Source: Sutcliffiella horikoshii
GTDB lineage: Bacteria > Bacillota > Bacilli > Bacillales > Bacillaceae_I
DNA length: 64,000 bases
Reading direction: 5' to 3'
Assembly: GCA_001636495.1 (NCBI GenBank)
Contig: KV440964.1
Coordinates: forward strand, 326,666 to 390,665
The notes under the pieces are model-generated. The model was not told the origin of the DNA. It saw only the letters and a program-made list of their open reading frames with translations, and made no database searches. This document shows, piece by piece, positions 7,674 through 52,770 of the stretch. A program made the position numbers and the translations under genes. Numbering within the stretch: position 1 is the first letter of the stretch; each line of letters opens with the position of its first letter.

Positions 7674-7770
7674 TTCGGACATTTCGTTCTTTGGTTCGGA
7701 CAATTTTATTGTACATTTGTTGGGGGTTCGGACAACATTTGGCCTTGTTCGGGCAAGAATCGAAGCTGTT
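7674..7770. repeat. TTCGGACA 21-nt-phased array, left part
   Basis: The word TTCGGACA starts at 7674, 7695 and 7727, with the variant TTCGGGCA at 7748. The intervals are 21, 32 and 21 nt, and the sequence between words is not conserved. The array resumes to the right of the IS3 element at 9192. No gene is visible in 7548-7849 apart from the IS end. No function is known to me. Confidence 0.75.
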
Positions 7771-7849
7771 TGGAGGTAGTATAGAAAGTGGACACAGGGA
7801 TTGGCGTCATGTTTTAATCAAAATTAACCAATATAAGGACGTGTTAAAC

Positions 7850-8155
7850 ATGACGAAAAAGAAAAGCTACTCTCCAGAGTTTAGGGAATATGTGGTGAAA
7901 CAAATCGTACTGGATGGGCATAAGATCGTTGATGTTAGTCAAAAACTAGATATCCCCTATGATACATTACAAAAGTGGGTATATCGCTTTAAAAAGAGAC
8001 AGAAAGAAGAAGCTCAAGAAACTCAAAATCAATTATTAACAGCTTCTGAATACAAGGACATGTATGAAGCCGAAAAGAGAAGCAAGCTTGAGTTACAGGA
8101 AGAGATAGATATCTTAAAAAAGGCCATGCACATCTTCACGCAAGAAAAGAAGTAA
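7850..8155 (+). CDS. IS3-family OrfA (helix-turn-helix)
   Basis: About 101 residues. Helix-turn-helix near residues 8-45 (YSPEFREYVVKQIV, VDVSQKLDIPYDTLQKWVYR) followed by a leucine-zipper-like helix (KLELQEEIDILKKAMHIF). An upstream in-frame extension to 7619 crosses the IS end and is not real; ATG 7850 is the family-like start. It binds the IS ends and provides the N-terminus of the OrfAB transposase after frameshifting. Confidence 0.93.
   Translation: MTKKKSYSPEFREYVVKQIVLDGHKIVDVSQKLDIPYDTLQKWVYRFKKRQKEEAQETQNQLLTASEYKDMYEAEKRSKLELQEEIDILKKAMHIFTQEKK
8116..8122 (+). other. Programmed -1 frameshift site (A6G)
   Basis: The heptamer AAAAAAG lies near the end of orfA. The -1 frame is open from here through to OrfB, giving KGHAHLHARKEVIFEF and then the OrfB body. 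This is the standard IS3 route to the OrfAB fusion transposase. Confidence 0.8.
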
Positions 8156-8196
8156 TTTTCGAATTCATTCATTCCCATCGGAATGAACACACCGTA

Positions 8197-9063
8197 GTGA
8201 TGATGTGCAGAGTTCTTGGTGTGTCTACATCTGGCTATTATTTATTTGTGAAGCGATTGGACCGTGAGGCAACGGAAAGAGAACAATGGAGAAAGTTCAT
8301 AGATGAACGTATCCTATTTCATTTCGCTGATAACCTCGAAACATATGGAAGTGTGAGAATTCATCGTAAGTTAGTGGTAAAAGATAAAATAAATGTTTCT
8401 TCTAAAACGGTTGCCAATCGCATGAGAGCGTTAGGTTTGTTTGCCACACCGCCTAAAGTATATACCGTCACTACAGATTCTGATCATTCTAATCGTACGT
8501 ATAATAATAAGTTGAATCGTCAGTTTAGCCCAGACGCACCCAACAAAGTTTGGGTGACAGATATTACTTATATTCCTACTCATGAAGGTTTCTTATATTT
8601 TAATCCAATCCTGGACTTGTTCGGCAGGAAGGTTATTAGTTATGCAGTGGCTGATAAAATGGACCGTTCCTTGCCTCTTCGAGCTTTAAAAGAAGCCATA
8701 AAGCTGCGTCAACCGAAAGAAGGTTGGATACACCATTCGGATAAAGGAACTCAGTACTGTTCCAATGACTATATTGATGAGCTTAAAGAAGCAAAAGCAA
8801 AAATTAGTATGAGTAGGAAAGCTACTCCCTATGACAATGCCTGTGCGGAGTCGTTTTTTGCATCATTGAAAAAGGAGTATCTGAATAAATTTGTATTCAA
8901 AACTAAAGCAGAGGCAATGGGAGCTGTGCAACTTTACGTTGAGTTTTACAATAGGAAAAGAATCCATTCTACCTTAGAGTACGCCACTCCCAATGAGTAC
9001 GAAAAGGCGTATTATAAGGCACAACGCAAACATGCCAATACTACTCATTTGACCTCTGCTTAG
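8197..9063 (+). CDS. IS3-family OrfB transposase (DDE)
   Basis: 289 residues from the first ATG, but the frame is open back to the A6G site, and the catalytic protein is most likely the OrfAB fusion. An HTH_21-like region (LFHFADNLETYGSVRIHRKL) precedes the rve integrase core. DDE signatures are visible: VWVTDITYIPT (first Asp), IHHSDKGTQYCS (second Asp) and DNACAESFFASLKKEYL (Glu). It lies in the -1 frame relative to orfA, as expected. Nothing suggests inactivation. Confidence 0.95.
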   Translation: MMMCRVLGVSTSGYYLFVKRLDREATEREQWRKFIDERILFHFADNLETYGSVRIHRKLVVKDKINVSSKTVANRMRALGLFATPPKVYTVTTDSDHSNRTYNNKLNRQFSPDAPNKVWVTDITYIPTHEGFLYFNPILDLFGRKVISYAVADKMDRSLPLRALKEAIKLRQPKEGWIHHSDKGTQYCSNDYIDELKEAKAKISMSRKATPYDNACAESFFASLKKEYLNKFVFKTKAEAMGAVQLYVEFYNRKRIHSTLEYATPNEYEKAYYKAQRKHANTTHLTSA

Positions 9064-9189
9064 AGGAACAATTCGGTTTTTAATTGTTCCTTTAAACAGA
9101 GGCGTCCAAGCGAAGTGACTACGTAGCGCGGAAGAAAAAAATACGCCAATCCTATACGTATTGATGTCTATTTTATTGACAGAACTCCA

Positions 9190-9235
9190 ACTTCGGACAA
9201 GAACACAAAATGTTCGGACATTTCACTCCTCGGCC
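9190..9235. repeat. TTCGGACA 21-nt-phased array, right part
   Basis: The word TTCGGACA starts at 9192 and 9213, 21 nt apart, continuing the array at 7674-7770. Removing 7771-9189 leaves 25 nt between the flanking words, close to one unit plus a few bases. Confidence 0.65.
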
Positions 9236-9245
9236 CACCTCACTT

Positions 9246-9291
9246 AAAAAAAACACCCAAGGTCAGCCGCTTCTCCAGCTCCCTTGAGTGT
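9246..9291 (-). terminator. Intrinsic terminator
   Basis: On the minus strand, arms ACACTCAAGG and CCTTGGGTGT are followed by eight T. It ends the DUF3221 operon. Confidence 0.85.
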
Positions 9292-9298
9292 CCAGCTC

Positions 9299-9667
9299 TC
9301 ATTCTTCTATTATCTCCACCGTAGCAGCCTCTCCCTGACCAGGAAGGCTCTCCTCCATATTGTAATACTCCACTTTTACAAAATCATACAACTGTGGTCG
9401 ATCAAAGGACTCCCCATTGAAAGTGAACCAAGCCGATTGCTCACTTTCCGCAATCACTTCTTCCACTGTCAACTGCTGGATCTCTTCCTTACTTATATCA
9501 CTGACAACCAGAATCTTCCCATCTTCCATCGCCGCAACATACCCGGTCATTTCCATGCTCACAGGCTTTGGATTTTCTTTTAATCCAGTATCATAAACCA
9601 CAAAACTAATCACTATAATCACACCGATCACAGCAACCATTCCGATGAGCAGACCTCTAATCCCCAT
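9299..9667 (-). CDS. DUF3221-family exported or membrane-anchored protein
   Basis: 122 residues. An N-terminal hydrophobic anchor (residues 6-26) is followed by a small beta-rich domain with the DUF3221 pattern GYVAAMEDGKILVVSD and an AWFTF strand. It starts immediately after the stop of the upstream small membrane protein. A Bacillus-type small surface protein, function unknown. Confidence 0.75.
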   Translation of the reverse strand: MGIRGLLIGMVAVIGVIIVISFVVYDTGLKENPKPVSMEMTGYVAAMEDGKILVVSDISKEEIQQLTVEEVIAESEQSAWFTFNGESFDRPQLYDFVKVEYYNMEESLPGQGEAATVEIIEE

Positions 9668-10078
9668 CTATTCCTGACCTTTAACTTCCACTAATGTATA
9701 CTCCTCCGTATCCAAATCGTATTCAAACGAAATTAAATACTTTTCTCCGACCTCAATCTGGCCACAGAATGCTTCTGCATCCTCTTCACTCGCAGTTTCA
9801 TAATGATAAGTCAGCCCATCATAATCCTGTTCCGTTACCGAACAACGATAAGCACCGTTCTCATCTTCTGTAACTGCCACACTTTCCACCGTAATACGAT
9901 CCTCACCTGAAGTCGACGGAATATACGTGTACATGACAAACGTCGTAATAAGGAATAACGTCCCTACCACAAGCGCAATGCGCCCTTTTTTCTTTTCCGA
10001 CCTGACAAGCGTGGTGAACACACCGAACCCTATCAACCCAAAACTGATTGCAAATAAAATCAAACCAAAAATATACAT
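9668..10078 (-). CDS. Small membrane-anchored hypothetical protein
   Basis: 136 residues. Two membrane helices (about 3-22 and 34-53) with a positively charged RSEKKKGR loop between them, then an acidic, probably extracytoplasmic domain of about 80 residues containing two cysteines (YRCSVTE, EAFCGQ) that could form a disulfide. GGGGG lies before ATG 10078. It is transcribed with the DUF3221 gene, whose start directly follows its stop. I do not recognise a family. Confidence 0.7.
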   Translation of the reverse strand: MYIFGLILFAISFGLIGFGVFTTLVRSEKKKGRIALVVGTLFLITTFVMYTYIPSTSGEDRITVESVAVTEDENGAYRCSVTEQDYDGLTYHYETASEEDAEAFCGQIEVGEKYLISFEYDLDTEEYTLVEVKGQE

Positions 10079-10186
10079 TGATGAAACCCCCGTTTCTATT
10101 CTCTACTTCCCATTATATATCAGACAACCAGTATCATTCATACTTTTTCGTGGAGACAATTTATTTGTTACATACCAATAGCATAC

Positions 10187-10218
10187 AAAAACCCTTACCG
10201 CTCTCCCACAGTAAGGGT
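10187..10218 (-). terminator. Intrinsic terminator after the RodA-like gene
   Basis: Minus-strand arms ACCCTTAC and GTAAGGGT with a following T run. Confidence 0.8.
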
Positions 10219-10229
10219 CCGCAAAACTA

Positions 10230-11396
10230 TCATTCAAAAAAATACTTCCTAGTCCTAAACTGTACATTCAGCACAATCCCGATCGCGATCATGTACGTCA
10301 ACAAGGAACTACCACCATAGCTGAAAAACGGTAACGGAATTCCTGTTATCGGGAGCAACCCGATTGTCATCCCGACGTTTTGGAACACTTGGAATGTCAG
10401 CATTCCAATTACTCCCGCGCAAAGGTAGGTACCGAATGGGTCATGGCACTCCATCGCGATGAAGGTTATTTTATAGATCAAGAAAAAGAAAAGAGAAATA
10501 ACAATTGTCGCTCCCATAAAGCCGAATTGGCTGGCAATGGCTGCAAAGATGAAGTCTGTGTGCGCTTCCGGTAAGTATACATTCATCTCCCCGTAGCCCG
10601 AGCCCGTGTATTCACCTGATCCAATGGCAAGCAGGGACCTAACTAGTTGAAACCCTTGCACATCCTGGTATTCATATGGATTCAACCACCCATAAAATCG
10701 GTCCAACTGATATTCAGGAATTAGGTAGGTATGGAAAAAGGTTGGATGCGCAATGAAAATATATAAGAATAGTGCAATGAATCCCAAGGCTGCGCCAGTA
10801 AGTGAAAGGATGATGTTCCACTTGATTCCTGATACCAGGATCATGGCTGCGATAATGGCGCAATAGACAAGGGTTGTCCCCATATCGGGCTGCTTTGCAA
10901 CTAGAAATAGTGGGAGGCTGGATGCGGCAATGATTTTCACAAGCAGCAGAAAGCTATCCTGTAAAGTTGCTTCTTCGAACTTTGCGCGGTGGTCAGCGAT
11001 TACCTTACTTAAGACTAAAATAAGTGAAATTTTCATGAGCTCGGAGGGTTGGATGTTCCCTAGTCCCGGCAAGGTGTACCAGCTTGTTGCTCCTTTTATT
11101 TCACTGACAAGGGCGGAGGGAAAGTTGAATTCCAGCCCAAGTAAAAGGATGACGCCAAGTCCAAACGTGATCCAGGCGAGGTTCCGTAAGTAATCAAAGT
11201 GGATCAGCATGGACAAGCCGATGCCAATAGCTCCTACGATAAACCACATTAATTGTTTTTCCATGAAATCTATATTGCGAAGAACCGGTGGCAACGTGGG
11301 TTCCACACTTTTCAACGCAAACAAACTGGCCACAACCATTATCCCGATGAGAAAGATCAATGTGGTATCCAATTGAGGTTTATAGTCTTTTTCCAC
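10230..11396 (-). CDS. FtsW/RodA/SpoVE-family (SEDS) protein
   Basis: 388 residues, about ten membrane segments. SEDS proteins polymerise lipid II glycan strands together with a class B PBP. Family hallmarks are present: IQPSELMKISLILVLSK, KQPDMGTTLVY, the conserved Asp loop region EAHTDFIFAAIASQFGF and the C-terminal TGIPLPFFSYGGSS. The start is GTG 11396 behind GGGGAGAGG. The length and lack of division-cluster neighbours fit a RodA-type elongation paralog rather than FtsW, but sequence alone does not settle which. Confidence 0.93.
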   Translation of the reverse strand: MEKDYKPQLDTTLIFLIGIMVVASLFALKSVEPTLPPVLRNIDFMEKQLMWFIVGAIGIGLSMLIHFDYLRNLAWITFGLGVILLLGLEFNFPSALVSEIKGATSWYTLPGLGNIQPSELMKISLILVLSKVIADHRAKFEEATLQDSFLLLVKIIAASSLPLFLVAKQPDMGTTLVYCAIIAAMILVSGIKWNIILSLTGAALGFIALFLYIFIAHPTFFHTYLIPEYQLDRFYGWLNPYEYQDVQGFQLVRSLLAIGSGEYTGSGYGEMNVYLPEAHTDFIFAAIASQFGFMGATIVISLFFFLIYKITFIAMECHDPFGTYLCAGVIGMLTFQVFQNVGMTIGLLPITGIPLPFFSYGGSSLLTYMIAIGIVLNVQFRTRKYFFE

Positions 11397-11604
11397 TTAC
11401 CTCTCCCCGCCCTTTGCCTTATTCTTTTTATTTATTGATATTTGTATTATTATCATAGTAATCGTTGTGTATTTTTCACTTAACTTATAAATCATATTCG
11501 AGAAATCCATACCCGTCAATTTTTAAAAAATGGATAATGTATGACGTCGTAAATTAAGGGGAAAATATCCCAAAACATTACTTTTTTTAGGAGGAAATAC
11601 GAAT

Positions 11605-12834
11605 TTGTTTATTGCATTGGCACTTTTTCTATTCATGTCCTTTTTCTTATCGGGAAGTGAGACTGCCTTAACAGCTGTCAATCGAATGAAAATTCAAATA
11701 AGAGCGGAAAATGGAGATATTGCAGCCCAGAAACTATTGAAACTAATTGAACGTCCTGATCAGTTTATTACCGCAATTTTAATAGGGAACAATATCGCAA
11801 ATATTATGCTTCCAACATTAGTCACTCTAATTGCAATAAGTTATAGCTTTAATGTTGGAATTGCTACAGCCATATTAACGGTTGTTCTAATTATTTTTGC
11901 AGAAGTGTTACCTAAGTCCATTGCTGCGACATTTGCTAATAAAGTAGCTTACATCGTTGCACCTGTTATCTCCCTACTTCTAATTATCTTTAAACCGTTG
12001 ATCTTCTTGCTCTCCCTTTTTACCAATTTGGTGATTCGATTACTTTCTAGAGGAATGGTTCAGGAAGCCACCTTATCGAAGGAAGAATTGAAGACAATGG
12101 TGGATATCGGAAGAACGGAAGGAACGTTCTTTGAAGAAGAATCTCAACATATTATCGGGGCCATTGATTTCTATACGAAAGATGTTCGCGATGCTTTAAA
12201 GACACCTCGCATCGATATTCATGGTCTGCCATGCGACGTTACCTTTGAGGATGCGAGGAATTTCGTCATGGAAAGCAGTTATACCAGATATCCTGTTTTT
12301 AAAGACAATATGGATAATATTATTGGTGTTTTCCACGCAAAGCTACTATTGAACTGGTCGCTGAATCCTGAACTGGAGATAAAGGATTTTATGGATACCA
12401 CACCGTTATTCGTTGCAGAATCCACCTCCATTGAAAAAGTATTTAAGATGATGCTGAAAGAAAAGAAGCATATGGCGATTGTCATTGATGAATACGGCGG
12501 GACAACTGGGATTATCAGTCATGAGGACATTATTGAAGCCATGATCGGGCAGGAAATTGAAGATGAAACAGATGAAACTGGGGAAATTTTAATTGAGGAA
12601 CTGAGTAATTCTCAGATTATCTGCCATGGCAAACTTGCAATCAGACGTTTTAATGAAGTGTTTAAGACGAAGGTACCGGAAGAAGAGGATACTATTGCCG
12701 GATTCTTATTCAAGGAGCTGGGACACATCCCCTCAGAGGGCGACCATCTTGAATACCAGCATCTCCACTTCGATATTTTAAATATGGAAGATAATGTGAT
12801 TAAACAAATAAAAGTGAAGAAAAAAGCCACTTAA
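11605..12834 (+). CDS. CNNM/hemolysin-C family transporter with CBS domains
   Basis: 409 residues: DUF21/CNNM membrane domain (about 1-175; GSETALTAVNRMKI at the start, IAEVLPKSIA-like loop), a CBS pair (about 190-320; TRYPVF and IVIDEYGGTTGIISHEDIIEA) and a C-terminal CorC_HlyC domain. The start is TTG 11605, nine nt after a perfect AGGAGG. It is convergent with a paralog at 12893-14224. Family members transport or protect against Mg or other divalent cations; the ion here is unknown. Confidence 0.92.
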   Translation: MFIALALFLFMSFFLSGSETALTAVNRMKIQIRAENGDIAAQKLLKLIERPDQFITAILIGNNIANIMLPTLVTLIAISYSFNVGIATAILTVVLIIFAEVLPKSIAATFANKVAYIVAPVISLLLIIFKPLIFLLSLFTNLVIRLLSRGMVQEATLSKEELKTMVDIGRTEGTFFEEESQHIIGAIDFYTKDVRDALKTPRIDIHGLPCDVTFEDARNFVMESSYTRYPVFKDNMDNIIGVFHAKLLLNWSLNPELEIKDFMDTTPLFVAESTSIEKVFKMMLKEKKHMAIVIDEYGGTTGIISHEDIIEAMIGQEIEDETDETGEILIEELSNSQIICHGKLAIRRFNEVFKTKVPEEEDTIAGFLFKELGHIPSEGDHLEYQHLHFDILNMEDNVIKQIKVKKKAT

Positions 12835-12841
12835 ACAAGTA

Positions 12842-12885
12842 AATGGTGCCGCCCTTCATCAATCAATGAAGAGCGGCACCATTTT
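12842..12885. terminator. Bidirectional terminator between convergent CNNM genes
   Basis: Long stem with arms AAATGGTGCCGC and GCGGCACCATTTT, flanked by A and T tracts. Confidence 0.88.
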
Positions 12886-12892
12886 CTATCTA

Positions 12893-14224
12893 TTACGATT
12901 GATGCTGGTTGGATAAAGCATTTAACTGAAGACCAACCTGTTTTACCTGGTGATTGTCCATCTCAAGTACTGTCCAAATGTTCTCACCATGTTCGATATG
13001 TCTATCTTCATCGTCTTCAAGATCCTGCAGCATTACCTGCATCCAGCCGCCAATCGTATCTATATCATCCTTTTCATCAAATACTACCCCGAACTGCTGT
13101 TCAATATCTGTCAATAAGACAAGGCCATTTATATGATAAAGGTCTGTTTCAATTTGTTGAATGTCCGGCACTTCATCTGCATCGAACTCATCACGGATTT
13201 CCCCTACGATTTCTTCAAGGATATCTTCCATCGTAATGATTCCGGCAGTACCACCATATTCATCGATTACTAACGCTATATGAACCTGTTCGGCCTGCAT
13301 TTTTAATAATGCATCCTGTAGGGAGGTCACCTCATGAATCAGTGGAAGCTCGTGAAGGAAGTCCTTCATTTCCCCTGCTCTACCGGCAGCGAAACTTGTA
13401 AGCATTTCCTTTACGTTGACAAATCCGAGAATATTATCCTTGTCCCCATCTTCTGTAACAGGGTAACGGGTATATTGATGTTCATCCAATATGCTGATAA
13501 TTTCTTCTCTGGTCATGCTATTAGATAAAGTGACAATTTGCACACGCGGGATCATGATATCCCTTGCGATTCTTTCGTCAAAAGTGAATATATTTTCCAT
13601 GTAGGATAATTCTGTTTGATTAATTTCTCCACTTTCAAAGCTTTGAGTCATAATGATTTTAAGCTCTTCTTCTGAATGGGCCTGCTCATGACTTGCTGGC
13701 TGTACTCCAAAAACACGTAATAAAACGCGTGCTGAACCATTTAATGCCCAGATTAGTGGGTACATAAGTTTACCAAACCAGTATAAAGGTCGGGCAATAA
13801 GCAATGTCATTTTTTCTGCAAACTGAATCGCAAGCGTCTTTGGCGCAAGCTCTCCCACTACTACATGCAAGAACGTTACAATGGAGAATGCAACCACAAA
13901 CGAGATTACAGTAGAAACGGACGCTGCTACCCCAAAGTTATCAAATAAAGGGTACAAAAGTCTTTCCACAGTCGGTTTCCCTAACCAACCTAGACCTAAT
14001 GCTGTTACCGTGATACCTAGCTGACATGCGGACAAGTAATAATCCAAATCGGCAATAAGTTTTTTGGCCACAACTGCTGTCTTATTACCTTCTGCAATCA
14101 GTTGATCGACACGGGACATACGCACCTTTACCACCGCAAATTCTGATCCAACGAAGAATGCTGTCAAACCTATTAATAAAGCCACTAAAAGTAAGTTCAT
14201 GATTAATATACTGTCAATATCCAA
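12893..14224 (-). CDS. CNNM/hemolysin-C family transporter under a manganese riboswitch
   Basis: 443 residues: CNNM/DUF21 membrane domain (1-195, FFVGSEFAVVKVRMSRVDQL), a CBS pair (about 210-335, HQYTRYPVTEDGDK and LVIDEYGGTAGIITMEDI) and a C-terminal CorC_HlyC domain. It starts at TTG 14224 with GAGGG just upstream. The leader holds a yybP-ykoY riboswitch and terminator, so expression should rise with Mn2+. That makes Mn2+ efflux or homeostasis the best guess for its role, although the family is better known for Mg2+. It is longer than, and only partly similar to, its convergent neighbour. Confidence 0.92.
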   Translation of the reverse strand: MDIDSILIMNLLLVALLIGLTAFFVGSEFAVVKVRMSRVDQLIAEGNKTAVVAKKLIADLDYYLSACQLGITVTALGLGWLGKPTVERLLYPLFDNFGVAASVSTVISFVVAFSIVTFLHVVVGELAPKTLAIQFAEKMTLLIARPLYWFGKLMYPLIWALNGSARVLLRVFGVQPASHEQAHSEEELKIIMTQSFESGEINQTELSYMENIFTFDERIARDIMIPRVQIVTLSNSMTREEIISILDEHQYTRYPVTEDGDKDNILGFVNVKEMLTSFAAGRAGEMKDFLHELPLIHEVTSLQDALLKMQAEQVHIALVIDEYGGTAGIITMEDILEEIVGEIRDEFDADEVPDIQQIETDLYHINGLVLLTDIEQQFGVVFDEKDDIDTIGGWMQVMLQDLEDDEDRHIEHGENIWTVLEMDNHQVKQVGLQLNALSNQHQS

Positions 14225-14337
14225 TTGTTTCCCTCAAATGAGGGATTCACCTCCGAAAAATTCCACTTTATTTTTTCTGACTTTACCTTTAACTATTCCA
14301 CCTAATTTTAGATTAGAACTCTCCCCCTATCCGAATA

Positions 14338-14366
14338 TAAAAAAACCTCCACCAAAAATCAGGTAG
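14338..14366 (-). terminator. Riboswitch expression-platform terminator
   Basis: Minus-strand arms ACCTCTACC and GGTGGAGGT followed by seven T, between the yybP-ykoY aptamer and its gene. Confidence 0.85.
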
Positions 14367-14394
14367 AGGTTTTGTTTTTAAGATTTATATGACC

Positions 14395-14540
14395 TATACC
14401 TTAATGGCAAAGGTCTCGCAAACAACATCTTAAGTGTTGCCAGTTAAGCCGGTGACGCATTGCATCACGTGTTGACGACATAACTGTAAGCTACTCCCCT
14501 TTGGAGTATTATAAGCTCTGTTTCTCAGAGCGATAGCTTA
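14395..14540 (-). promoter_or_regulatory. yybP-ykoY (manganese) riboswitch
   Basis: On the minus strand the two invariant segments of the class are present in order: AAAGGGGAGTAGC (around 14491-14503) and GCGAGACCTTTGCC (14405-14418). Between them is a variable middle helix region containing CGTCAACACG and CGTCACCGGC. An intrinsic terminator lies just downstream and then the CNNM gene, so Mn2+ binding is expected to favour read-through. Assigned by matching the known consensus by eye. Confidence 0.88.
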
Positions 14541-14610
14541 AACTCATAAACTATCAAGAAAAATTTTATAATAGTTTGGTTGGAAAGTCAATATTGGTAG
14601 ATTAGCAGGA

Positions 14611-14643
14611 AAGTCCCAACTCCTTATGTATGGAGTCGGGACA
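14611..14643 (-). terminator. Probable terminator after the TipAS regulator
   Basis: Arms GTCCCGACTCC and GGAGTTGGGAC on the minus strand; the T tract is short. Confidence 0.55.
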
Positions 14644-14651
14644 GGTGCTAT

Positions 14652-15419
14652 TTACTGATTTTTCATTCCTGTATAGATGTAGATCGCATCCCTTAGGAAC
14701 TGTGCTGTACCAGACTGTTTTTTATCATAAAAAGCAGTAAACCTTTCGTCATCCACATACATCTGGGCAAGGCCTGCATGTGCTTCCTTGGAATAGGAAT
14801 CCCAGTAAAAACCTAGCCACTGACGGTGCAAGTCTGCCGCTTTTTGTGCTAGATCGCCAGCAGGATCTCCCGTCGCGAACGCTTCGTTCAATACTTCGAG
14901 CACTTCTTCTCCAAGCTTTTCACCTTGTTCGTGCTGGTTCTTGGTCATTCCCTTCAGCTTGGCGTTAGATTTATCGATTGTCTCATTTCCATACTTCGCT
15001 CTGATTTCCTCGCCGTATTTCGCTTCATTTTCATCTATCATGTTCTGCTTGAATGCTTCAAACTTTTCTTTATCACTCATGGTAATGCTCCCTTCTTTCG
15101 CAGCCAAGGTCCGGTCTACACTTTCAATGAGGCCCTCCAGCCGCTTTTGCTTTGTCAGAAGCTTATCACGGTGTTCTTTAAGTGCTTCCACTTCATCAAA
15201 GGATGGAGCATTAATGATTTTTTGAATGCTTTCAAGGTCTATCTCGAGCTCCCGGTAAAAGAGGATTTGCTGCAGCTTATCCACTTCCTCCTGCCCGTAG
15301 ATACGATACCCCGATGCACTGATTCTCGCCGGCTTGAGAATCCCAATTTCATCATAATATCGCAGCGTCCTGCCAGTCACCCCAGCCAATTTCGCTAATT
15401 TCTGTACGGTGTATTCCAC
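14652..15419 (-). CDS. MerR-family regulator with TipAS effector domain
   Basis: 255 residues. N-terminal MerR helix-turn-helix (VQKLAKLAGVTGRTLRYYDE, then GYRIYGQEEVDKL), a long coiled coil (about 75-110), and a C-terminal TipAS-type ligand domain (about 125-250). The latter shows AKYGEEIRAKYG, HRQWLGFYWDSYSKEAHAGL and YVDDERFTAFYDK. TipA/Mta-type regulators detect thiopeptides or other drugs and activate efflux. No transporter adjoins it here. The start at 15419 has AGGAGGTGATC upstream. Confidence 0.92.
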   Translation of the reverse strand: MEYTVQKLAKLAGVTGRTLRYYDEIGILKPARISASGYRIYGQEEVDKLQQILFYRELEIDLESIQKIINAPSFDEVEALKEHRDKLLTKQKRLEGLIESVDRTLAAKEGSITMSDKEKFEAFKQNMIDENEAKYGEEIRAKYGNETIDKSNAKLKGMTKNQHEQGEKLGEEVLEVLNEAFATGDPAGDLAQKAADLHRQWLGFYWDSYSKEAHAGLAQMYVDDERFTAFYDKKQSGTAQFLRDAIYIYTGMKNQ

Positions 15420-15491
15420 CTCTGATCACCTCCTGACAAATTCAGTGTACACCTTGACGCAGCGTGAAGGTAAAGGGGTTATTTCAATTTT

Positions 15492-16796: not shown

Positions 16797-16802
16797 GATA
16801 CA

Positions 16803-16857: not shown

Positions 16858-16862
16858 ACATC

Positions 16863-30835: not shown

Positions 30836-30855
30836 TGGGGGAAGGTTGAGATAAC

Positions 30856-31063
30856 GATGAGGACTTCTCTGACGGGGTTGGACTTGGACTGAGGTCTTCA
30901 TTCGGGGGATGAGGACCTCCCTGACGTGGATCTAGCACGGCTGAGGTCTTCATTCGAGCGATGAGGACCTCTCTGACGGGAATCGAACCCGACAGAGGTC
31001 TTCATTCGAGCGATGAGGACCTCTCGTACAAGAATCGAGCACGACGGAGGTCTTCATCTTTTC
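30856..31063. repeat. Four exact 52-bp tandem hairpin repeats
   Basis: Units begin with GATGAGGAC at 30856, 30908, 30960 and 31012, exactly 52 nt apart. Each unit opens with GATGAGGACCTC (one base different in the first) and closes with GAGGTCTTCAT. The two ends are complementary, so every unit can fold as a hairpin. The central 25 or so nt differ between units; inner CGTG/CACG in unit 2 is replaced by CGGG/CCCG in unit 3. It lies between the oxidase terminator and glnS. No gene is supported here. Confidence 0.9.
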
Positions 31064-33029: not shown

Positions 33030-33149
33030 TAGCGGTTAAATGGCTGAAAGTAGTGGATAAAACGAAAAATTCGCGGATATAACCCAATCTTCGTGGTTAA
33101 AACAAAAAGTTCGCGGATAAAACGAATACTTTCGGGCTTCAGGCAGGAA
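33030..33149. repeat. 20-bp-phased GCGGATAAAAC array
   Basis: Five related units start at 33030, 33050, 33070, 33090 and 33110, exactly 20 nt apart, with a decayed sixth at 33130. The best word is TTCGCGGATAAAAC (33110), with TTCGCGGATATAAC at 33070 and TTCGTGGTTAAAAC at 33090; the remaining six bases of each unit vary. It lies between the glnS terminator and the NERD gene. Confidence 0.8.
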
Positions 33150-34509: not shown

Positions 34510-34590
34510 ACAGTAACATTTTGGTCCATTGTAACTTTCCGGGGGGGTATTGTAACTATTTAGGCAGTGATTGTGACTTTTCCAATCTAC
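34510..34590. repeat. 21-bp-phased ATTGTAAC array
   Basis: ATTGTAAC occurs at 34528 and 34549 and ATTGTGAC at 34570, exactly 21 nt apart. A related ACAGTAAC at 34510 lies 18 nt upstream. The intervening bases are not conserved. It lies in the divergent region between the small membrane protein and katG. Confidence 0.65.
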
Positions 34591-44903: not shown

Positions 44904-44938
44904 AACACCGTTTCTTTACAGAGACGGTGTTTTATTTA
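44904..44938 (+). terminator. Intrinsic terminator of brnQ
   Basis: Arms AAAACACCGT and ACGGTGTTTT plus inner TCT/AGA. The remaining 44939-44999 shows nothing else. Confidence 0.85.
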
Positions 44939-44999
44939 ATCCTACCCATTTTCTTAATACCAACTTTTTGACATCCCAAAAACTTACAGGCTAAAATAT

Positions 45000-45991
45000 T
45001 TAAATGTCTTGTGAAAACTTCTTGAGTTTTTCCTTTATATTTTCATTTGCAAAAGAGGCTTGCACGCTATCCAGGTAAATCTGTTTATACTCTACATCAT
45101 TCATAGCAAATTCATTCCAGACTAAATCACATTCCTTTGCCATCGTTGTGTTCTGTTATCCGTATTTACAGTTACCTTTATTCCATCCCTGTGAAAATCG
45201 CAAATTGGATGATCACTAATTTGGGTTACTGCTTTGGTTTGGACATTACTTGTTGGACATATTTCAAGTACAACCTGTTTTTGCTTTACAATATTATAAG
45301 CTTCTTCACAATCATGAATGAACACACCGTGTCCAATTCTTTCAGCCCCTAATAATTTTACTGCCTCAAGCACATTTTTACCGATTCCAGTTTCACCTGC
45401 GTGGATTGTTACTCTAAACCCATATCCTCTAGCCAATGTGATGGGCTCAATGAATTTTTTACAAAAACCTTCCTCCTCAGAAGCACACAAATCAATTGCG
45501 ACAACCCCTTTCCCTAAGAATTCTTTCCCCTTCTCAACGACCTCAAAGGCACTTTCCACCGCCATCGTTCTCATACATGACAATATGATATTTCCATGAA
45601 TATCAAACTTCTCTTCTGCCTCTTTCATTCCCTCTATCACACTTAGGATAATTTCTTCTATAGATAATCCCATTTTCGTATGAAGTAAGGGTGCAAATCG
45701 AACTTCCATATATTTTACATTTTCCTTTGCTGCATCTTCAAAAAGCTCAAAAGTAATTCTTTTCAAATTTTCTTTTGACTGCATAACTAAATTAGGAATA
45801 GAAAATCTTTTAAGATATTCATCTAAGGATTCGCAGTTCAGTGGAGCAATTAGTTCTTCTTTCATTTTCTCCTTATCAAAAGAAGGTAATTTGATGCCGT
45901 CTTTCTTTGCTATGTCAATGATGGTCTCGGGTCTAACGCTACCATCCAAATGGCAGTGAAGTTCAATTTTAGGTAATGTGGAAAAATTCAT
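45000..45991 (-). pseudogene. add: Adenosine deaminase, frameshifted by a short deletion
   Basis: The 5' part (45991-45122) encodes a normal adenosine deaminase: KIELHCHLDGS (two metal His), VTIHAGETG, ERIGHGVFIH and ICPTSNVQT. It goes out of frame just after VNTDNRT and stops at 45122. The missing C-terminus continues in another frame (TTMAKECDLVWNEFAMNDVE to KLKKFSQDI, stop at 45000). The junction AGAACACAACGATG fits loss of about 10 nt between short ACA repeats where VSN would be expected. GGGAGG lies before ATG 45991. An adenine riboswitch controls it. Confidence 0.87.
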
Positions 45992-46017
45992 TATTGTTGC
46001 CTCCCCTATTTTTATAC

Positions 46018-46084
46018 AAAAAAATTCCTGATTACGAAGAAAGCACAAGTGAAAATCCTTGTATTTCCTTCGTAATCAGGAATT
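46018..46084 (-). terminator. Terminator of the adenine riboswitch expression platform
   Basis: A long minus-strand hairpin with arms CCTGATTACGAAG and CTTCGTAATCAGG, followed by seven T. Its 5' arm overlaps the 3' strand of aptamer helix P1, so ligand binding and termination exclude each other. Confidence 0.85.
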
Positions 46085-46135
46085 ATTGGTACCTGGTAGA
46101 AACCTCCAAACCATATTATTGGAGTTATACGAAAT
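46067..46135 (-). promoter_or_regulatory. Adenine (purine) riboswitch aptamer
   Basis: On the minus strand: P1 TTTCGTA, then the invariant TATAACTCC region, the L2 segment ATATGG, GTTTCTACC and the 3' strand CCTGATTACGAA. The ligand-pairing base at the position equivalent to 74 is U (CCU-GAUUAC), which specifies adenine rather than guanine. The overlap of P1 with the terminator predicts an ON switch. Confidence 0.9.
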
Positions 46136-46241
46136 TGAGTATTTTATTAAGTTCTATATAAAAATAATAAATTCTATCTCTATTGTCAAGGAGCAGGTTT
46201 ACATTCAACTCTCTAAGAGATAATCGCTTTTGCTTTTATGT

Positions 46242-46270
46242 TCAATAATTAGAAAAGCGAACGCATAGTT
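46242..46270 (+). promoter_or_regulatory. Possible sigma-G promoter of the second germination operon
   Basis: TCAATA and CATAGTT with a 16-nt spacer match the forespore consensus only partly. It lies 77 nt before the A subunit gene. Confidence 0.3.
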
Positions 46271-46346
46271 TTTAGTTCATGAGTGATAATATATCCATGA
46301 AAAGTTATTTGAGGTATCCTCTCTTTTAGCTATAGGAGGTCCCCCA

Positions 46347-47960
46347 GTGCATATTGTTGAATCTATAAAAAACTTTCTTCCACATGCAAATATCTATGTG
46401 TATACCATCATTACTCTTTTGGTTCCTTTGGCCCTGTCTAAGATTACCGGTTATTTTCAAGGCGATAAGGCAATACCAGTCAATGAAGAACAGGATAAGG
46501 AAGTTCCTGCTACACTTTCGAATGATTTATCTACCAATGTTAGTGAAATAAACAAAAATTTCGGGACAAACAACGACATAATTACAAGAGAGTTCACCTT
46601 TGGGAAAGAACAGACTAGAGCTGCCATTATTTTCGCAAAAGGACTGGTAGATACAACTATTATCAATAGTAATATACTGGAACCATTGCTAGTAAATCTT
46701 CCAGATAATATTGATCCTTTGACTAGCCAAATAAAAAACCTTTTACCAATTAGCGAGATTTCCGAAGAAAACCGGATTGGAGTTATCAACACAAGTATTC
46801 TAAGAGGACAAACGGTATTATTTTTACAAGATATCGATTATGCATTTGTATTAAAAACAAGCAATTCTAAAAGTCGTAACTTAGAAGAACCTGTATCTGA
46901 GTTGCAGGTTAGAGGACCCCGAATAGGCTTTAATGAAAACTTAATAGATAATGTAACCCTTCTTCGGAAAGCGGGAGTTAATACTAAACTAAGGTTTATC
47001 ACCCTTCAATTAGGTAAACGATTCAACAAAGAGTTAGTCATTACCTATGTAGAAGGTGTAGCAAATCCTGAAATCATTGAAAATGTGAAACGAAAAATTG
47101 AGTCTATCGATATCGATAATTTACCTGAATCCGGATATGTGGAGGAATTAATTGAAGACAATAATTTCTCTCTGTTTCCACAAGTTCAGAGTACAGAACG
47201 TCCTGATCGGGTTGTAGCGGCCCTCACTGAAGGAAGGGTTGCCATTATTTTAGACGGGACTCCTTTTGCATTAATTGTACCTGCTACAATTAATATGTTT
47301 TTGCAATCACCGGAAGATTACTATGAGCGGTGGATTGCCGGCAGTTTAGTCAGATTCCTAAGGTATGTAGCTGCTTTTATAGCAGTTTTCACACCTGCAT
47401 TATACATATCTTTCGTATCGTTTCATCAAGGATTAATACCTACAAAACTTGCCCTTTCCATTATTAGTTCCAGGGAAGGGGTTCCTTTTCCAATCCTTAT
47501 TGAAGCTCTTTTGATGGAGGTTTCTATTGAGATACTGAGAGAAGCAGGTTTAAGATTGCCGAAACCAATTGGCCAAACGATTGGAATCGTTGGTGGTTTG
47601 GTAATCGGAGATGCGGCCGTTCAAGCTGGTATTGTAAGCCCAGTAACTGTTATTGTCGTAGCTCTCACGGCTATTTCTTCCTTCTCACTTCCGCAATATA
47701 ATATAAGTATTTCGTTACGAATAGTGAGATTTATTGCCATGATTCTTGCTGCAACATTAGGATTGTATGGTGTTATAGTCTTTTTTATATTTTTCAGCAT
47801 ACACCTTGTTCGCTTAAAAAGCTTTGGAGTTCCTTACCTTAGCCCTGCAGTACCTTATCAGACGAATGATTGGAAAGATTTTTTAATACGACTTCCTATA
47901 TCAGCTATGAAAAAAAGACCTAAGATCTTAAAGCCAACTGACACTATCCGAAAAGGGTAA
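46347..47960 (+). CDS. GerA-family spore germination protein (A subunit)
   Basis: 537 residues. The N-terminal soluble domain (about 80-295) contains LRGQTVLFLQDIDYAFVLKT and the GerA signature VEGVANPEIIENVKRKIESI, then PDRVVAALTEGRVAIILDGT. About five membrane helices follow, with EGVPFPILIEALLMEVSIEI and LREAGLRLPKPIGQTIGIVG. The N-terminus carries an extra hydrophobic segment (about 15-33). The start is GTG 46347 behind AGGAGG. It is first in an A-B-C operon, the usual order. Confidence 0.94.
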   Translation: MHIVESIKNFLPHANIYVYTIITLLVPLALSKITGYFQGDKAIPVNEEQDKEVPATLSNDLSTNVSEINKNFGTNNDIITREFTFGKEQTRAAIIFAKGLVDTTIINSNILEPLLVNLPDNIDPLTSQIKNLLPISEISEENRIGVINTSILRGQTVLFLQDIDYAFVLKTSNSKSRNLEEPVSELQVRGPRIGFNENLIDNVTLLRKAGVNTKLRFITLQLGKRFNKELVITYVEGVANPEIIENVKRKIESIDIDNLPESGYVEELIEDNNFSLFPQVQSTERPDRVVAALTEGRVAIILDGTPFALIVPATINMFLQSPEDYYERWIAGSLVRFLRYVAAFIAVFTPALYISFVSFHQGLIPTKLALSIISSREGVPFPILIEALLMEVSIEILREAGLRLPKPIGQTIGIVGGLVIGDAAVQAGIVSPVTVIVVALTAISSFSLPQYNISISLRIVRFIAMILAATLGLYGVIVFFIFFSIHLVRLKSFGVPYLSPAVPYQTNDWKDFLIRLPISAMKKRPKILKPTDTIRKG

Positions 47961-47980
47961 TTTTTTTAGGGAAGGATCTA

Positions 47981-49078
47981 TTGAATATGAACCCACAACA
48001 GGAAAATCTAGTTTCGCCCACGCAGGCGATTATCATCATCATCAACTATATTCTAGGTGTAGGGATACTTACTTTACCTAGAACACTTGCTGATGAAGTT
48101 GGAACTCCTGATATTTGGATTACCATCCTAATTAGCAGCCTCTTTCCGTTGGCAGTAGGTTTCATTATTTTAATGCTTAATAATAGATACCCTAATAAAA
48201 CATTCTATCAATACAGTTCTAAAATTATAGGCAGGATATTAAGTACTATTATTGGTCTATCTATGGTCGCATATTTTATTACCTTAACAAGTTTTGAAGT
48301 AAGGATTTTAGCTGAAGTTACAGAAACATATTTACTGGAAGGCACTCCTATCCAAATATTAATTATTATCTTTTTATGGCTTACCCTTTATTTGAATGTA
48401 GATGGGCTTAATTCAATCGCACGGATGTTTCAGGTCATTTTTCCACTTACCGTTTTTATTTTTATATTATTAGCGTTAATGAGCTTAGGTTTGTTCGAAT
48501 TGAAAAACTTAAGGCCAGTTCTTGGCGGCGGTATTGGCCCTGTATTAAAAGGGATTAAAACGACCTCTTTGTCTTATATCGGCATTGAAATATTGATTAT
48601 TCTCTCTGCCTTTTTAACTGACCCAAAAAAAGGCAAAAAAATTGTATTTGCAGGGGTAATAATGCCGACTATTTTCTATCTTATTACTATTGTGATAGTA
48701 ATTGGAGCCTTGTCGCTTGATGGGGTAAGCAATTTAACTTGGCCTACGATAACGCTGATTCGCTCTTTTGAATTTCCGGGAATATTCTTTGAAAGATATG
48801 ACTCCCTCTTTTTAACGATTTGGATATTACAAATTTTCGCGACAATATCTATAACGTTATATGCAGCATCTTTGGGACTATCTCAGCTTTTCAATAAAGA
48901 GATAAAAACCTTTATGTACATTCTCCTTCCCGTTGCTTTCTTTATTTCGATGTTACCCCAAAATCTGCAGCAAGCTTTTTCGCTTGGTGACATGCTGGGA
49001 AATGCAGCAATTGTTTTATTCGGCATAATCCCCATTATACTATTAGTTCTCTCTTTCTTAAGGAGGAAGCACAGTTGA
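47981..49078 (+). CDS. GerB-family germination permease (B subunit)
   Basis: 365 residues with ten membrane helices. Family features are TQAIIIIINYILGVGILTLP, the cytoplasmic LNNRYPNKTFYQYSSKIIG and the FPLTVFIFILLALM region. The start is TTG 47981, with GAAGGA a little close (about 4 nt), or ATG 47987 at 10 nt; the sequence does not decide. Its stop overlaps the C-subunit start. Confidence 0.93.
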   Translation: MNMNPQQENLVSPTQAIIIIINYILGVGILTLPRTLADEVGTPDIWITILISSLFPLAVGFIILMLNNRYPNKTFYQYSSKIIGRILSTIIGLSMVAYFITLTSFEVRILAEVTETYLLEGTPIQILIIIFLWLTLYLNVDGLNSIARMFQVIFPLTVFIFILLALMSLGLFELKNLRPVLGGGIGPVLKGIKTTSLSYIGIEILIILSAFLTDPKKGKKIVFAGVIMPTIFYLITIVIVIGALSLDGVSNLTWPTITLIRSFEFPGIFFERYDSLFLTIWILQIFATISITLYAASLGLSQLFNKEIKTFMYILLPVAFFISMLPQNLQQAFSLGDMLGNAAIVLFGIIPIILLVLSFLRRKHS

Positions 49079-50256
49079 AGCATTTATGTATTATCTTAAA
49101 ACGCTCTTTACAACTGCTTATAGTGTTTCCACTGCTTACCGGTTGCTGGAGTTCTAGGGATATTGAAAAGCTGGATCTATTGATTGGGGTTGGAGTGGAT
49201 ACGGCTCAAGAAGAGAATATAAATTCTTCTTCTTATGAGACTGCTTCGCCACTTACTGTTACCTATCAAATGGCAAAGATAAAAAGCAATCAAAATCAAA
49301 ATTCCAAAAATCAAGAAGAAAAACCCTACACCAATGTTGAACAGACCGGAGCCTCCATTATCGAAACAGCTCGAGATGTTATACTCTTAAGAAAAAACAC
49401 AGTGAACGGTCAACACCAAAGGTTAATAATCATAAGTAAAGAGGTAGCAGAAAATCGAAGTATAAAAGAAATTCTTGATTTTTTCATCCGTGAACCTGAG
49501 GCCCGAATGAGTATGCTTGTCATGATTACAGAAGGGCTGGCAAAAGATATATTAGGTCATATGGAGACTGACGATATCCCATCTATGCATATATACGATA
49601 TATCAGAGAACTTCGATAAATCGAATGAACTACTTGAACGGAAGTCCCTTGCGAAAATAAACGCTTTGATGGAAGCACAATCCAGTTTTATACTTCAAAA
49701 TGTCGTACAAACGGATGGAGAACTTAAACTGTCCGGTGCTGCTGTAATAAAAGGCAGTACATTGAAGCTTATTGGTATCTTAAAAGAAGAAGAGATAAAG
49801 GGCATAAACTGGATTACTGCACCCACAAATGGGGCTATTGTAAAGGTAGCAAAAGAAGGCAGTGATAAACCAATAATTTACGAACAAGAAATTTTAAAAA
49901 GTAAGATTACTCCCACGTTAAAGAACGGTCAGCTTTCTTTTCAAGTTAAAGTGAAATCAGAAGGGCGAATCATTGAGGTTGCAGCCCATACCGAAGACTA
50001 TGCAAAGGAAAAAACAAGAAGAAAAATAGAGGGGCAAATAGCTGAAGAAGTAAAAAAAGAGATTCAGACCAGTTTGGAAAGAATTCAAAAAGATTTCCAA
50101 GTGGATGCCATTGGCTTCCATGATTATGTAAGAATTAAGCACCCCAAGTTTTGGAAAGAGCACCAAAGCGACTGGGATTCTATTTTCAGTCAGGCTCCTA
50201 TTGATTATGAAGTACAGGTCACGATCACTGACTTTGGCTTGGGGATACAGAACTAA
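49075..50256 (+). CDS. Ger(x)C-family germinant receptor lipoprotein (C subunit)
   Basis: 393 residues. The lipoprotein signal ends in LTGCWSSRD (acyl Cys near residue 23), followed by the family opening LDLLIGVGVDTA and the C-terminal Ger(x)C domain (RRKIEGQIAEEVKKEIQTSL, DAIGFHDYVRIKHPKFWKEH). It starts at TTG 49075 with AAGGAGG upstream, overlapping the B-subunit stop. The mature N-terminus has a Ser/Asn-rich insert (about 45-85) absent from the C protein at 23366-24538. Confidence 0.93.
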   Translation: MKHLCIILKRSLQLLIVFPLLTGCWSSRDIEKLDLLIGVGVDTAQEENINSSSYETASPLTVTYQMAKIKSNQNQNSKNQEEKPYTNVEQTGASIIETARDVILLRKNTVNGQHQRLIIISKEVAENRSIKEILDFFIREPEARMSMLVMITEGLAKDILGHMETDDIPSMHIYDISENFDKSNELLERKSLAKINALMEAQSSFILQNVVQTDGELKLSGAAVIKGSTLKLIGILKEEEIKGINWITAPTNGAIVKVAKEGSDKPIIYEQEILKSKITPTLKNGQLSFQVKVKSEGRIIEVAAHTEDYAKEKTRRKIEGQIAEEVKKEIQTSLERIQKDFQVDAIGFHDYVRIKHPKFWKEHQSDWDSIFSQAPIDYEVQVTITDFGLGIQN

Positions 50257-50262
50257 AAGAAA

Positions 50263-50302
50263 TAAAAAAGCACCTTACTTTTTACAGTAAAGGTGCTTCT
50301 CA
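50263..50302. terminator. Bidirectional terminator
   Basis: Arms AAGCACCTT and AAGGTGCTT with A and T tracts, between convergent gerC and glmS. Confidence 0.85.
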
Positions 50303-50345
50303 CGTTTTTTAACCTTAAAATGGTAGTTTTTTTCACTTTAAAGAA

Positions 50346-52151
50346 TTATTCCACCGTAACACTCTTCGCAAGGTTACGTGGCTTATCTACGTCACAGTCT
50401 CTGTGAAGTGCTGCGTAGTAAGAGATCAGTTGCAACGGAATAACAGAAACTAGTGGAGATAGCAATTCGTTTACTTGTGGTACAACGAAGCTGTCTTCTT
50501 CTGTTTCTAGGCCTTTCATGGAGATGATACAAGGGTTCGCACCACGTGCTACTACCTCTTTCACGTTACCGCGGATGGATAGGTCCACTTGTTCTTGTGT
50601 GGAGATGGCGATAACTGGTGTACCATTTTCGATTAGGGCGATCGTTCCGTGCTTCAATTCTCCTCCAGCAAATCCTTCTGCTTGGATGTAGGAGATTTCT
50701 TTTAATTTCAATGCACCTTCAAGACCTACATAGTAGTCCATTGTACGGCCGATGAAGAAGCAGTTTCTAGTTGTTGCTAAGAATTTGCGAGCGATGTCTT
50801 CAAGCTCTTCTTTTGCATCACATAGAACTTCCATTGCGTTTGCAACGATACCTAGGTCTTGCACTAGGTCGAATTCTAGGTTATGACCTTTCGATTCCGC
50901 TAGTACTGCAGCGAAAATGGACAGAACACCAAGTTGTGCAGTGTATGCTTTTGTAGAAGCTACTGCAATCTCAGGGCCTGCGTGAAGTAGCAATGTGAAA
51001 TCCGCTTCACGGGATAGTGTAGATCCTTGTACGTTTGTAACTGTAAGTGCCGGATAACCAAGCTCTTTCACTTGTACAAGTACTGCACGGCTGTCCGCTG
51101 TTTCTCCACTTTGAGAAATGAAGATGAATAGCGGTTTTTCAGATAAAATTGGCATGTTGTAGTTGAACTCACTTGCTACGTGTACTTCTACAGGTACCTT
51201 AGCAAGCTTTTCAATCATTTGCGCTCCAACAAGACCTGCATGGTAGCTTGTTCCTGCTGCTACGATGTAGATGCGGTCAGATTGGTTAACAGCGTCGATG
51301 ATATTAGAGTCAATTGTCAACTCGCCGTTTTCGTCTTGGTATTTTTGGATGAGCTTACGGATTACTAATGGCTGCTCATCAATTTCTTTTAACATGTAAT
51401 GTGGGTATGTGCCTTTTTCGATATCACTTGCATCTAGTTCAGCAGTGTATGGCGCGCGCTCGATGATTTCACCGTTCAGCTTTTTGATTGTTACCGCTTC
51501 TTTTTTCACGATAACCATCTCTTTGTCCATAAGCTCAACGAATTGATCCGTCACTTGGATCATCGCCATTGCGTCACTTGCCACTACGTTGAAGTCACCT
51601 TTTCCTACTCCAACTAATAGAGGACTCTTGTTTTTCCCTACATAGATTGTTTCTGGATCTTCATTGTCCAGTAAAGCAATCGCGTAAGAACCTTTAAGGA
51701 TAGAAAGAGTGCGACGCATCGCTTCTTCTACATGCTGTCCTTCGTTTGCAAATTTCTCGATGATTTGTACGACTACTTCTGTATCTGTTTCACTTACTAG
51801 TTCTACGCCTTGTAAGTGTTCGCGTTTAAGTTGTGAATAGTTCTCGATAACTCCGTTGTGTACAAGTGTAAAGCGACCAGACGTGCTTTGGTGTGGATGC
51901 GCATTTACTTTACTTGGCACACCGTGAGTTGCCCAGCGAGTGTGACCGATTCCTGTTGATGCTGAAACGTCATTGTCCACTACTTCACGAAGGTCCGCAA
52001 TACGGCCTTTTTCCTTGAATACGTGTACGCCGCTCTCGTTCATTACTGCGATTCCAGCAGAGTCATATCCACGGTATTCAAGCTTTTCCAGACCTTTTAA
52101 AAGAATTTCCTTTGTATCCTGTGTTCCGATATATCCAACGATTCCGCACAT
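50346..52151 (-). CDS. glmS: Glutamine-fructose-6-phosphate aminotransferase (isomerizing)
   Basis: 601 residues. It makes glucosamine-6-phosphate from fructose-6-phosphate and glutamine. The N-terminal glutaminase domain begins with catalytic Cys2 after Met (MCGIVGYIG) and shows [21 protein letters not shown] and VHNGVIENY. Two SIS domains follow (about 285-420 and 455-590) with [23 protein letters not shown] and the C-terminal [20 protein letters not shown] lies before ATG 52151. Controlled by the glmS ribozyme in its leader. Confidence 0.98.
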
Positions 52152-52254
52152 AATTAATGTTCCTCCCTAGAGTTGCAGGGACAAGAAAACACACCATAGA
52201 AAGGGGCGTTCTTGCCCCCACATTACCTATAAAATATTTTTGTAATCATAGTAA

Positions 52255-52410
52255 CAGTCTTTGTACATAAAGTTGCCTTTATGCTTTAAACTGTCCCTAG
52301 AGTCGGTTGTGATTGGCAACCGGGAGGCATCCGCCGATAGATCGATAAACCTCCTCCTCGTCAACTAAGCATTGTTTCGTCCGTGGCTTAGTTCAGGCGC
52401 TTTGTATAAA
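52255..52410 (-). promoter_or_regulatory. glmS self-cleaving ribozyme
   Basis: On the minus strand the cleavage-site core GCGCCTGAACT is found with cleavage expected between A 52401 and G 52400. It is followed by AGTTGACGAGGAGG, the catalytic core CGGCGGATGCCTCCCGG, and the 3' region TTTAAAGCATAAAGGC. It is cut in the presence of glucosamine-6-phosphate, lowering glmS mRNA. Confidence 0.95.
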
Positions 52411-52560
52411 GTTGTAACCTCGTTGCTCCTTTCCATTCTCGAATAGCAACAAATAATATCTTACCTTCCATACCCCAATTCGTCAACAATTATGTGGATT
52501 ATTACCAGGTTATAGATGTTCGTCGATGAATTTTAGTAGAAAACACAGATAAATTGTACA

Positions 52561-52770
52561 ATCCCTTCATAAGAAGCGGGAATACCGTCACAGGGGTAGC
52601 AAATCCCTTCACAACATAGTCGCAATTGCCCCTATTTTAACTGTCGTTCAACTACTTGAAAATTAATCCCGTCACTACATGGATTTTTCCCGTCATAACA
52701 GTGAAAAATCACGTCATAACTGGTGATAATCCCGTCATAACCTCCAATAATCCCATCACAGCGATTAATT
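52561..52770. repeat. Ten-unit 21-bp-phased CCCGTCATAAC array
   Basis: Units start at 52561, 52582, 52603, 52624 (a 42-nt stretch, two degenerate units), 52666, 52687, 52708, 52729 and 52750, every interval a multiple of 21 nt. The conserved word is ATCCCGTCATAAC at 52729; variants are TTCCCGTCATAAC, ATCACGTCATAAC, ATCCCGTCACTAC and ATCCCTTCACAAC. The last eight or so bases of each unit are unrelated. It lies upstream of the glmS leader and downstream of the glmM terminator. Confidence 0.88.

Follow-up and report, generated by a model that had tools for sequence, protein, structure and literature searches.

The 64,000 nt stretch of Sutcliffiella horikoshii contig KV440964.1 analyzed here (the window; G000:C1:326666-390665, from the 4.26 Mb genome designated G000) contains five intergenic sites at which a short word recurs at a constant distance. 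These arrays, with periods of 20–22 or 52 nt, may be rows of protein-binding sites, and they were first proposed in a first-pass annotation; we read all five sites and rechecked their coordinates, and the five arrays are real. For site 1, given there as a single 21 nt array at 7674-9220, the TTCGGACA array was confirmed, but the annotation left unsaid that it is split by an insertion sequence (IS). The left part (7674..7770, + strand) holds words 1–4 of ten plus the TT of word 5, with TTCGGACA at 7674, 7695 and 7727 and TTCGGGCA at 7748, at spacings of 21, 32 and 21 nt. An IS3-like element follows (7771..9189, + strand), with ends TGGAG...CTCCA and encoding OrfA (HTH_Tnp_1) and OrfB (rve), and then the right part of the array (9190..9220, + strand), whose two TTCGGACA words, at 9192 and 9213, are taken as words 9 and 10, with 6–8 missing, a numbering inferred from the ten-word layout described below. 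Site 1 is a single array interrupted by an insertion sequence.

The other four sites are also on the + strand. Site 2 (30855..31058) is a 52 nt array of four units, each with a ATGAGGAC...GTCTTCAT dyad. Site 3 (about 33030..33131), downstream of glnS, is a 20 nt array of GCGGATAAAAC and variants, with four words plus a degenerate first word and the left flank GTCGAAT immediately before the array. Site 4 (34528..34580), the weakest of the five, consists of three ATTGTAAC words at 21 nt, and site 5 (52561..52770), between glmM and the glmS ribozyme, of ten rows of CCCGTCATAAC and variants at 21 nt, two of them barely recognisable. A search of the window against Rfam at gathering thresholds gave no match at the five array sites. 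The nearest named proteins are those of Bacillaceae-like bacteria, with named relatives of the glutaminyl-tRNA synthetase at up to 82% in a search that may omit records very close to the window. The window also contains the glmS ribozyme (52241-52412), a purine riboswitch (46053-46152) and, at 59284-60201, a tRNA cluster adjoining an rRNA operon.

Arrays were detected as 8-mers recurring at least three times at a constant distance, with up to one mismatch, in noncoding DNA and for periods of 14–30 nt. The full sample of G000, comprising the window and 40 stretches of 20 kb (864 kb, 145 kb noncoding), contained 25 noncoding arrays, 22 of which had periods of 20 (nine arrays), 21 (11) or 22 nt (two), with one each at 14, 16 and 28 nt. 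As known pattern hits had guided the placement of eight of the 40 stretches, we also defined a clean sample of 20 evenly spaced 20 kb stretches, which held eight arrays: two each at 20, 21 and 22 nt and one each at 14 and 28 nt. The counts at 20–22 nt were above those of random DNA, as the first-pass annotation had anticipated: 40 order-2 Markov controls of the noncoding DNA of the clean sample yielded 18 arrays in all, three of them at 20–22 nt, against six of eight in the clean sample itself, and 15 controls of the whole sample yielded 11, one at 20–22 nt. The coding DNA of the 864 kb contained 18 arrays, nine at 21 nt; by eye, five of these nine are intergenic-type arrays under spurious open reading frames (ORFs), including site 5, and the other four belong to genes that are long or repetitive. 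In noncoding DNA, 8-mers recur exactly most often at distances of 52, 40, 20, 21 and 42 nt.

The same periods dominate in 400 kb of each of G014 (11/11 arrays at 20–22 nt), G011 (5/6) and G005 (7/7), with many further words. Four of four arrays in 100 kb of G016 had a 21 nt period (1/2 in 100 kb of G160), as did 5/5 in 40 kb of G017, all from a single stretch and largely duplicates of one block; no arrays were found in the 40 kb scanned in each of G023, G184 and G022. In 80 named loci from Bacillota and others (973 kb, 118 kb noncoding) there were four rows at 20–21 nt, of which three were runs of a 7-mer and the fourth was a 20 nt array (Bacillus timonensis, L066). A triple of TTCGGWCA occurred in eight of 199 genomes, from two of 97 genera, sampled from the order. 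In another genus of the family, G016:C1:3334578-3335236 holds a run of more than 30 TTCGGTCA words that recur every 21 nt, their spacers being almost uniform. Locus L305 (G160:C3:437200), from a species of another family, carries TTCGGACA arrays with a 21 nt period and freely varying spacers, and the triple is absent from three other genomes of the genus of that species. A phage origin was considered and rejected: the three-word pattern appeared on five IMG/VR contigs, by eye and ORF overlap in ORFs in four and as a plain short tandem repeat in one. A plasmid origin was likewise rejected, with no match to the site 5 array in a plasmid collection and nine weak partial matches to a TTCGGACA locus, confined to the right-hand 75 of 341 bases, outside the array.

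The words had been thought specific to each locus, which proved incorrect: each recurs elsewhere in G000, and the families are common to loci and species. There are 15 TTCGGACA pairs in G000 and, at up to three mismatches, 15 matches to CCCGTCATAAC and 17 to GCGGATAAAAC, with 0 for the reversed-pattern control in all three cases. Arrays in L049 and L054 carry GTTACAAT, of which ATTGTAAC is the reverse complement, and a 52 nt unit with GAGGTC is also found in L026, L031, L048, L057 and L059. The accompanying proposals, that the arrays share a pitch and not their words and that they are not one dispersed repeat, were upheld.

The rule that governs spacing is best seen in the TTCGGACA family, for which the search of the fetched loci gave 41 arrays of distinct sequence with at least four exact words. 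Complete arrays have ten words at about 0, 21, 53, 74, 96, 117, 138, 159, 180 and 201 nt, that is, with a spacing of 21-32-21-22-21x5, and the span is 200–201 nt in 20 of the 25 arrays having at least eight words. Phase coherence is 0.97 at 10.6 bp and 0.95 at 10.5 bp, against 0.22 at both 10.0 and 11.0 bp, supporting the helical phasing first suggested from the window; the 31–32 nt gap corresponds to three turns, and the rule is therefore helical phase and not a 21 nt unit. The spacers inside one array are unrelated to each other, and in the 20 full arrays the spacer of unit 5 is distinct (near TTTGAAAATTTGG) and units 6–9 end in AAAAC or AAATC.

The neighbouring genes of the 41 arrays, relative to the word strand, are oriented -/- in 15 cases, +/+ in 12, +/- in nine and -/+ in four, with one unassigned; these rows are not independent, seven of the -/- rows being the glmM site in seven species, and the neighbour of some IS-split arrays is the IS itself. 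Despite this non-independence, TTCGGACA arrays are common in both gene orientations. Their predicted RNA fold was no better than that of shuffled sequences (mean z of -0.15 and 0.16, 14 arrays). Both results bear on the idea that the arrays act as RNA, either as transcribed targets of an RNA-binding protein or through a function in mRNA ends. Such a role would suit their intergenic location, often after a gene, the 52 nt dyads, which could be hairpins, and the single orientation kept by the 20 nt family downstream of glnS; nevertheless, the use of both orientations, the lack of a fold, the 10.5 bp phasing, the five sites without an Rfam match and the non-specific flank pairing described below make it very unlikely.

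All 13 copies of the IS lineage that we found in the genus sit at 21 nt arrays, with differing words (window 7771-9189; L327-L331, L337-L344). The five copies of G000 are all in TTCGGACA arrays, cut at TT^CGGACA and in a single orientation relative to the words; four of them are flanked by a 4 bp duplication ending in TT, and the copy in the window is without duplication, in an array missing words 6–8, as after a deletion. The genus search retrieved eight further copies. Those of G006, G012 and G013 (92%) are in TTCGGACA arrays (contig ends truncate the loci of G012 and G013, and the G013 junction is deduced from word positions); four copies from G005 (75%) are in AGTT(C/G)GTGCCAAAA arrays, with a 4 bp duplication in 4/4; and the G009 copy (88%) lies between two other 21 nt arrays, not within a word, with CATT on both sides. 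The IS subtypes are matched to arrays of different word families. This matching, the placement of 13 out of 13 copies at 21 nt arrays and the variable presence of arrays at orthologous sites would be expected if the arrays were landing sites or remains of mobile elements, made or maintained by this IS lineage or a lost relative. However, the IS search gave no match in ten of 16 genus genomes, the array-rich G004, G008, G010 and G014 among them, words are constrained where no IS is present, and the flanks of different loci are, by eye, alike in composition only, so we regard this origin as decidedly unlikely.

Orthologous sites allow words and spacers to be followed separately. In a survey of the glmM–glmS ribozyme intergene, with 15 genomes assigned and G009 outside the tally, TTCGGACA arrays occur in G004, G006, G008, G010, G012, G013 and G014, and CCCGTCATAAC arrays in G000 (one) and G003 (two), with a third word in G011. 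A clean empty site with a target duplication was looked for by eye in G005 and G007, and none was seen. Among the seven species with TTCGGACA, identity is 0.962 for words, 0.774 for spacers and 0.743 for the 40 nt flank, the variable word position being position 6 (identity 0.81). Other species have another word, or none, at this site. Between G014 and its sister G008, position 6 differs in four words beside spacers that agree at 82 of 129 positions; hence, the words changed without homogenisation of the spacers.

In the 330 nt downstream of glnS, surveyed in 15 genomes, a 20 nt array with a common left flank is present in ten; its word is GCGGATAAAAC in G000, G003 and G005, TTGATAAAA in G006 and G008, GGACAATAWAAT in G004, G010 and G012, and takes other forms in G001 and G011, with no 20 nt array in this interval in G007, G009, G013, G014 and G015. 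G005 and G006 are sisters in the tree, yet the word at this site differs in every unit. Across whole genomes, too, lineages differ in which word they carry, TTCGGACA or TTCGGTCA (ACA or TCA), the respective pairs numbering 58/0 in G014, 40/16 in G008, 15/5 in G000 and 10/0 in G009, and 9/77 in G013, 9/72 in G010, 7/60 in G004, 8/58 in G012, 8/29 in G006, 5/19 in G005, 0/5 in G007, 1/1 in G003 and 0/1 in G002, with 0/0 in G001, G011 and G015.

These comparisons also weigh on the possibility that the arrays are decayed tandem repeats, in which slippage or unequal exchange amplified short units and made them uniform within each array; the words would be a remnant, and the replication or recombination machinery would set the pitch. 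About 16 of 20 positions are alike in the arrays downstream of glnS, where all units switch word together between species, the TTCGGTCA arrays of G016 are long and nearly uniform, and the 52 nt units are nearly identical in places. Conversely, the TTCGGACA element has unrelated spacers, a fixed length and word number and position-specific features, its words change without spacer homogenisation, and the exclusive use of 20–22 and 52 nt is left unexplained. We consider decayed repeats unlikely. The expansion process mentioned in the first-pass annotation fits the long, more uniform arrays of G016 and not the TTCGGACA element, where constraint falls on the words but not on the spacers. Drift of tandem repeats may account for some of the 20 nt and 52 nt families and for the G016 arrays.

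The second class is strict in its period, since 29 of 29 arrays with a period of 48–56 nt are at exactly 52 nt; there are 11 in G000, ten in G005, four in G014 and four in G016, and none in G011 and G160. Most 52 nt units hold a dyad, whose arms vary between arrays yet stay complementary (by eye). Loci of this class are L026, L031, L034, L044, L045, L048, L050, L054, L057 and L059, together with those of congeners. Upstream of glnS in G003, G005 and G013 (L169, L164 and L168), a longer repeat, CTAGCTGTTGATTGGAGC...GAAATCAACAG, replaces the 52 nt array. This repeat resembles one from other Bacillaceae. At the same position in G014 (L171), a 52 nt array of a different unit closes with a single GAGGACCTC-type unit, so that two word families adjoin at a single site.

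Arrays of both classes sit where the DNA shifts from G/T-rich to C/A-rich, with the same pattern on either strand. In the 20–22 nt class, the GC skew left of the array exceeds that on its right by 0.52 (27 arrays); the same difference is 0.01 for 492 matched control placements, which reuse the same 422 intergenes (P 9e-9). A possible interpretation of this switch is that transcripts arriving from either side terminate at the array. Pairing of the G-rich left flank with the C-rich right flank in a hairpin was rejected, self pairing being no better than cross pairing (-25.0 and -25.2 kcal/mol, respectively; 35 arrays).

Among the mechanisms originally put forward, in-phase binding is the best reading of the arrays, and a general nucleoid protein alone would leave the word specificity unexplained. 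We propose, at somewhat short of an even chance, that the arrays are rows of sequence-specific protein-binding sites on one DNA face, perhaps serving as a bidirectional roadblock or insulator. Putative word-specific, one-face binding at the level of DNA is well supported by sequence; the pitch, the constant length, the constraint on words, the independence of gene orientation, the absence of an RNA fold, the composition switch and IS targeting are all apparent in the sequences compared. We infer the binder, the filament and the roadblock or insulator role, the last from position and composition. There would be one binder per word family, or relatives of a single binder, sitting head to tail with one site per two turns in the 20–22 bp class; in the 52 bp class, dyad sites would be occupied once per five turns. 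The resulting short nucleoprotein array, of about 100–210 bp, would act as DNA in either orientation, most probably serving at transcription-unit borders as a roadblock or insulator that works in both directions.

Several points weigh against this proposal, besides the non-independent rows and reused control intergenes given above. A 21 nt lattice alone peaks near 10.5 bp, and only the 31–32 nt gap tells lattice from phasing; additionally, the 20 nt period drifts relative to 10.5 bp across several words, and many E-type and 52 nt units are nearly uniform, like simple tandem repeats. The arrays are dispensable, the glmM site being without an array in G001, G002, G005, G007 and G015. Avoidance of divergent intergenes is not significant (4/34 vs. 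90/422, P 0.27), a location just after terminators was noted by eye at several loci and is uncounted, and no binder is known, no search having been aimed at one.

A bolder form of the proposed binding, possible although on the doubtful side, is that helical pitch and not sequence sets the element class: many word families, each with its own putative binder, would build one-face filaments (two-turn direct, five-turn dyad) marking transcription boundaries, binders and words would co-evolve so that a lineage shifts all its words together, and the transposon lineage would recognise the class irrespective of its word. Should the arrays indeed form bound filaments at transcription boundaries, the genus would possess an insulator-like code with a constant pitch and freely varying words. 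Sister species with a genome-wide word shift would then provide a natural series for the co-evolution of a DNA-binding protein and its sites, and the IS lineage a ready reporter of what marks the array.

We know of no annotation for such intergenic DNA, and a search of the open-access literature found no description of such arrays. Plasmid iterons and centromere arrays are direct repeats of about 20–22 bp with a short core, bound head to tail and found by rep or par genes; the arrays described here are alike in repeat length and short core, but are dispersed over many chromosomal loci and have several word families. Clustered regularly interspaced short palindromic repeats (CRISPR) have identical repeats of at least 20 nt, unrelated spacers, constant spacing and cas genes. 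They share with our arrays the alternation of repeat and non-repeated spacer at constant spacing, whereas here the word has only 8–14 nt, total length is fixed and the spacers are orthologous between species, evolving by substitution; no search for cas genes was made. Repetitive extragenic palindromic (REP) sequences and bacterial interspersed mosaic elements (BIME) of enterobacteria are palindromic, and are targeted by IS1397 and others. They are described as dispersed, intergenic, reported to bind proteins and a preferred IS target (PMC1525189, PMC2817692). Our arrays are likewise dispersed, intergenic and the target of specific insertion sequences, but those of 20–22 nt are direct repeats without an RNA fold, with a fixed helical pitch and several word families; the palindromic, foldable unit of 20–40 nt that typifies REP/BIME is absent from TTCGGACA arrays, whereas 52 nt units do hold dyads. 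The TAACTGA repeats of Beggiatoaceae and cyanobacteria form many intergenic sets of one heptamer, mostly just upstream of start codons, with a proposed role in translation (PMC4679880). Both systems comprise many intergenic sets of a short direct word, but here there are several words, at positions not tied to starts. Finally, RemA-binding regions of Bacillus subtilis contain phased direct repeats, AT-rich, of 7 bp at 3 bp intervals (period 10) and poorly conserved, upstream of a few promoters, and the protein, an octameric ring, is proposed to wrap DNA (PMC8481266). Phased direct repeats are common to both, whereas the arrays described here have highly conserved, G+C-containing words with periods of 20–22 and 52 nt at many loci.

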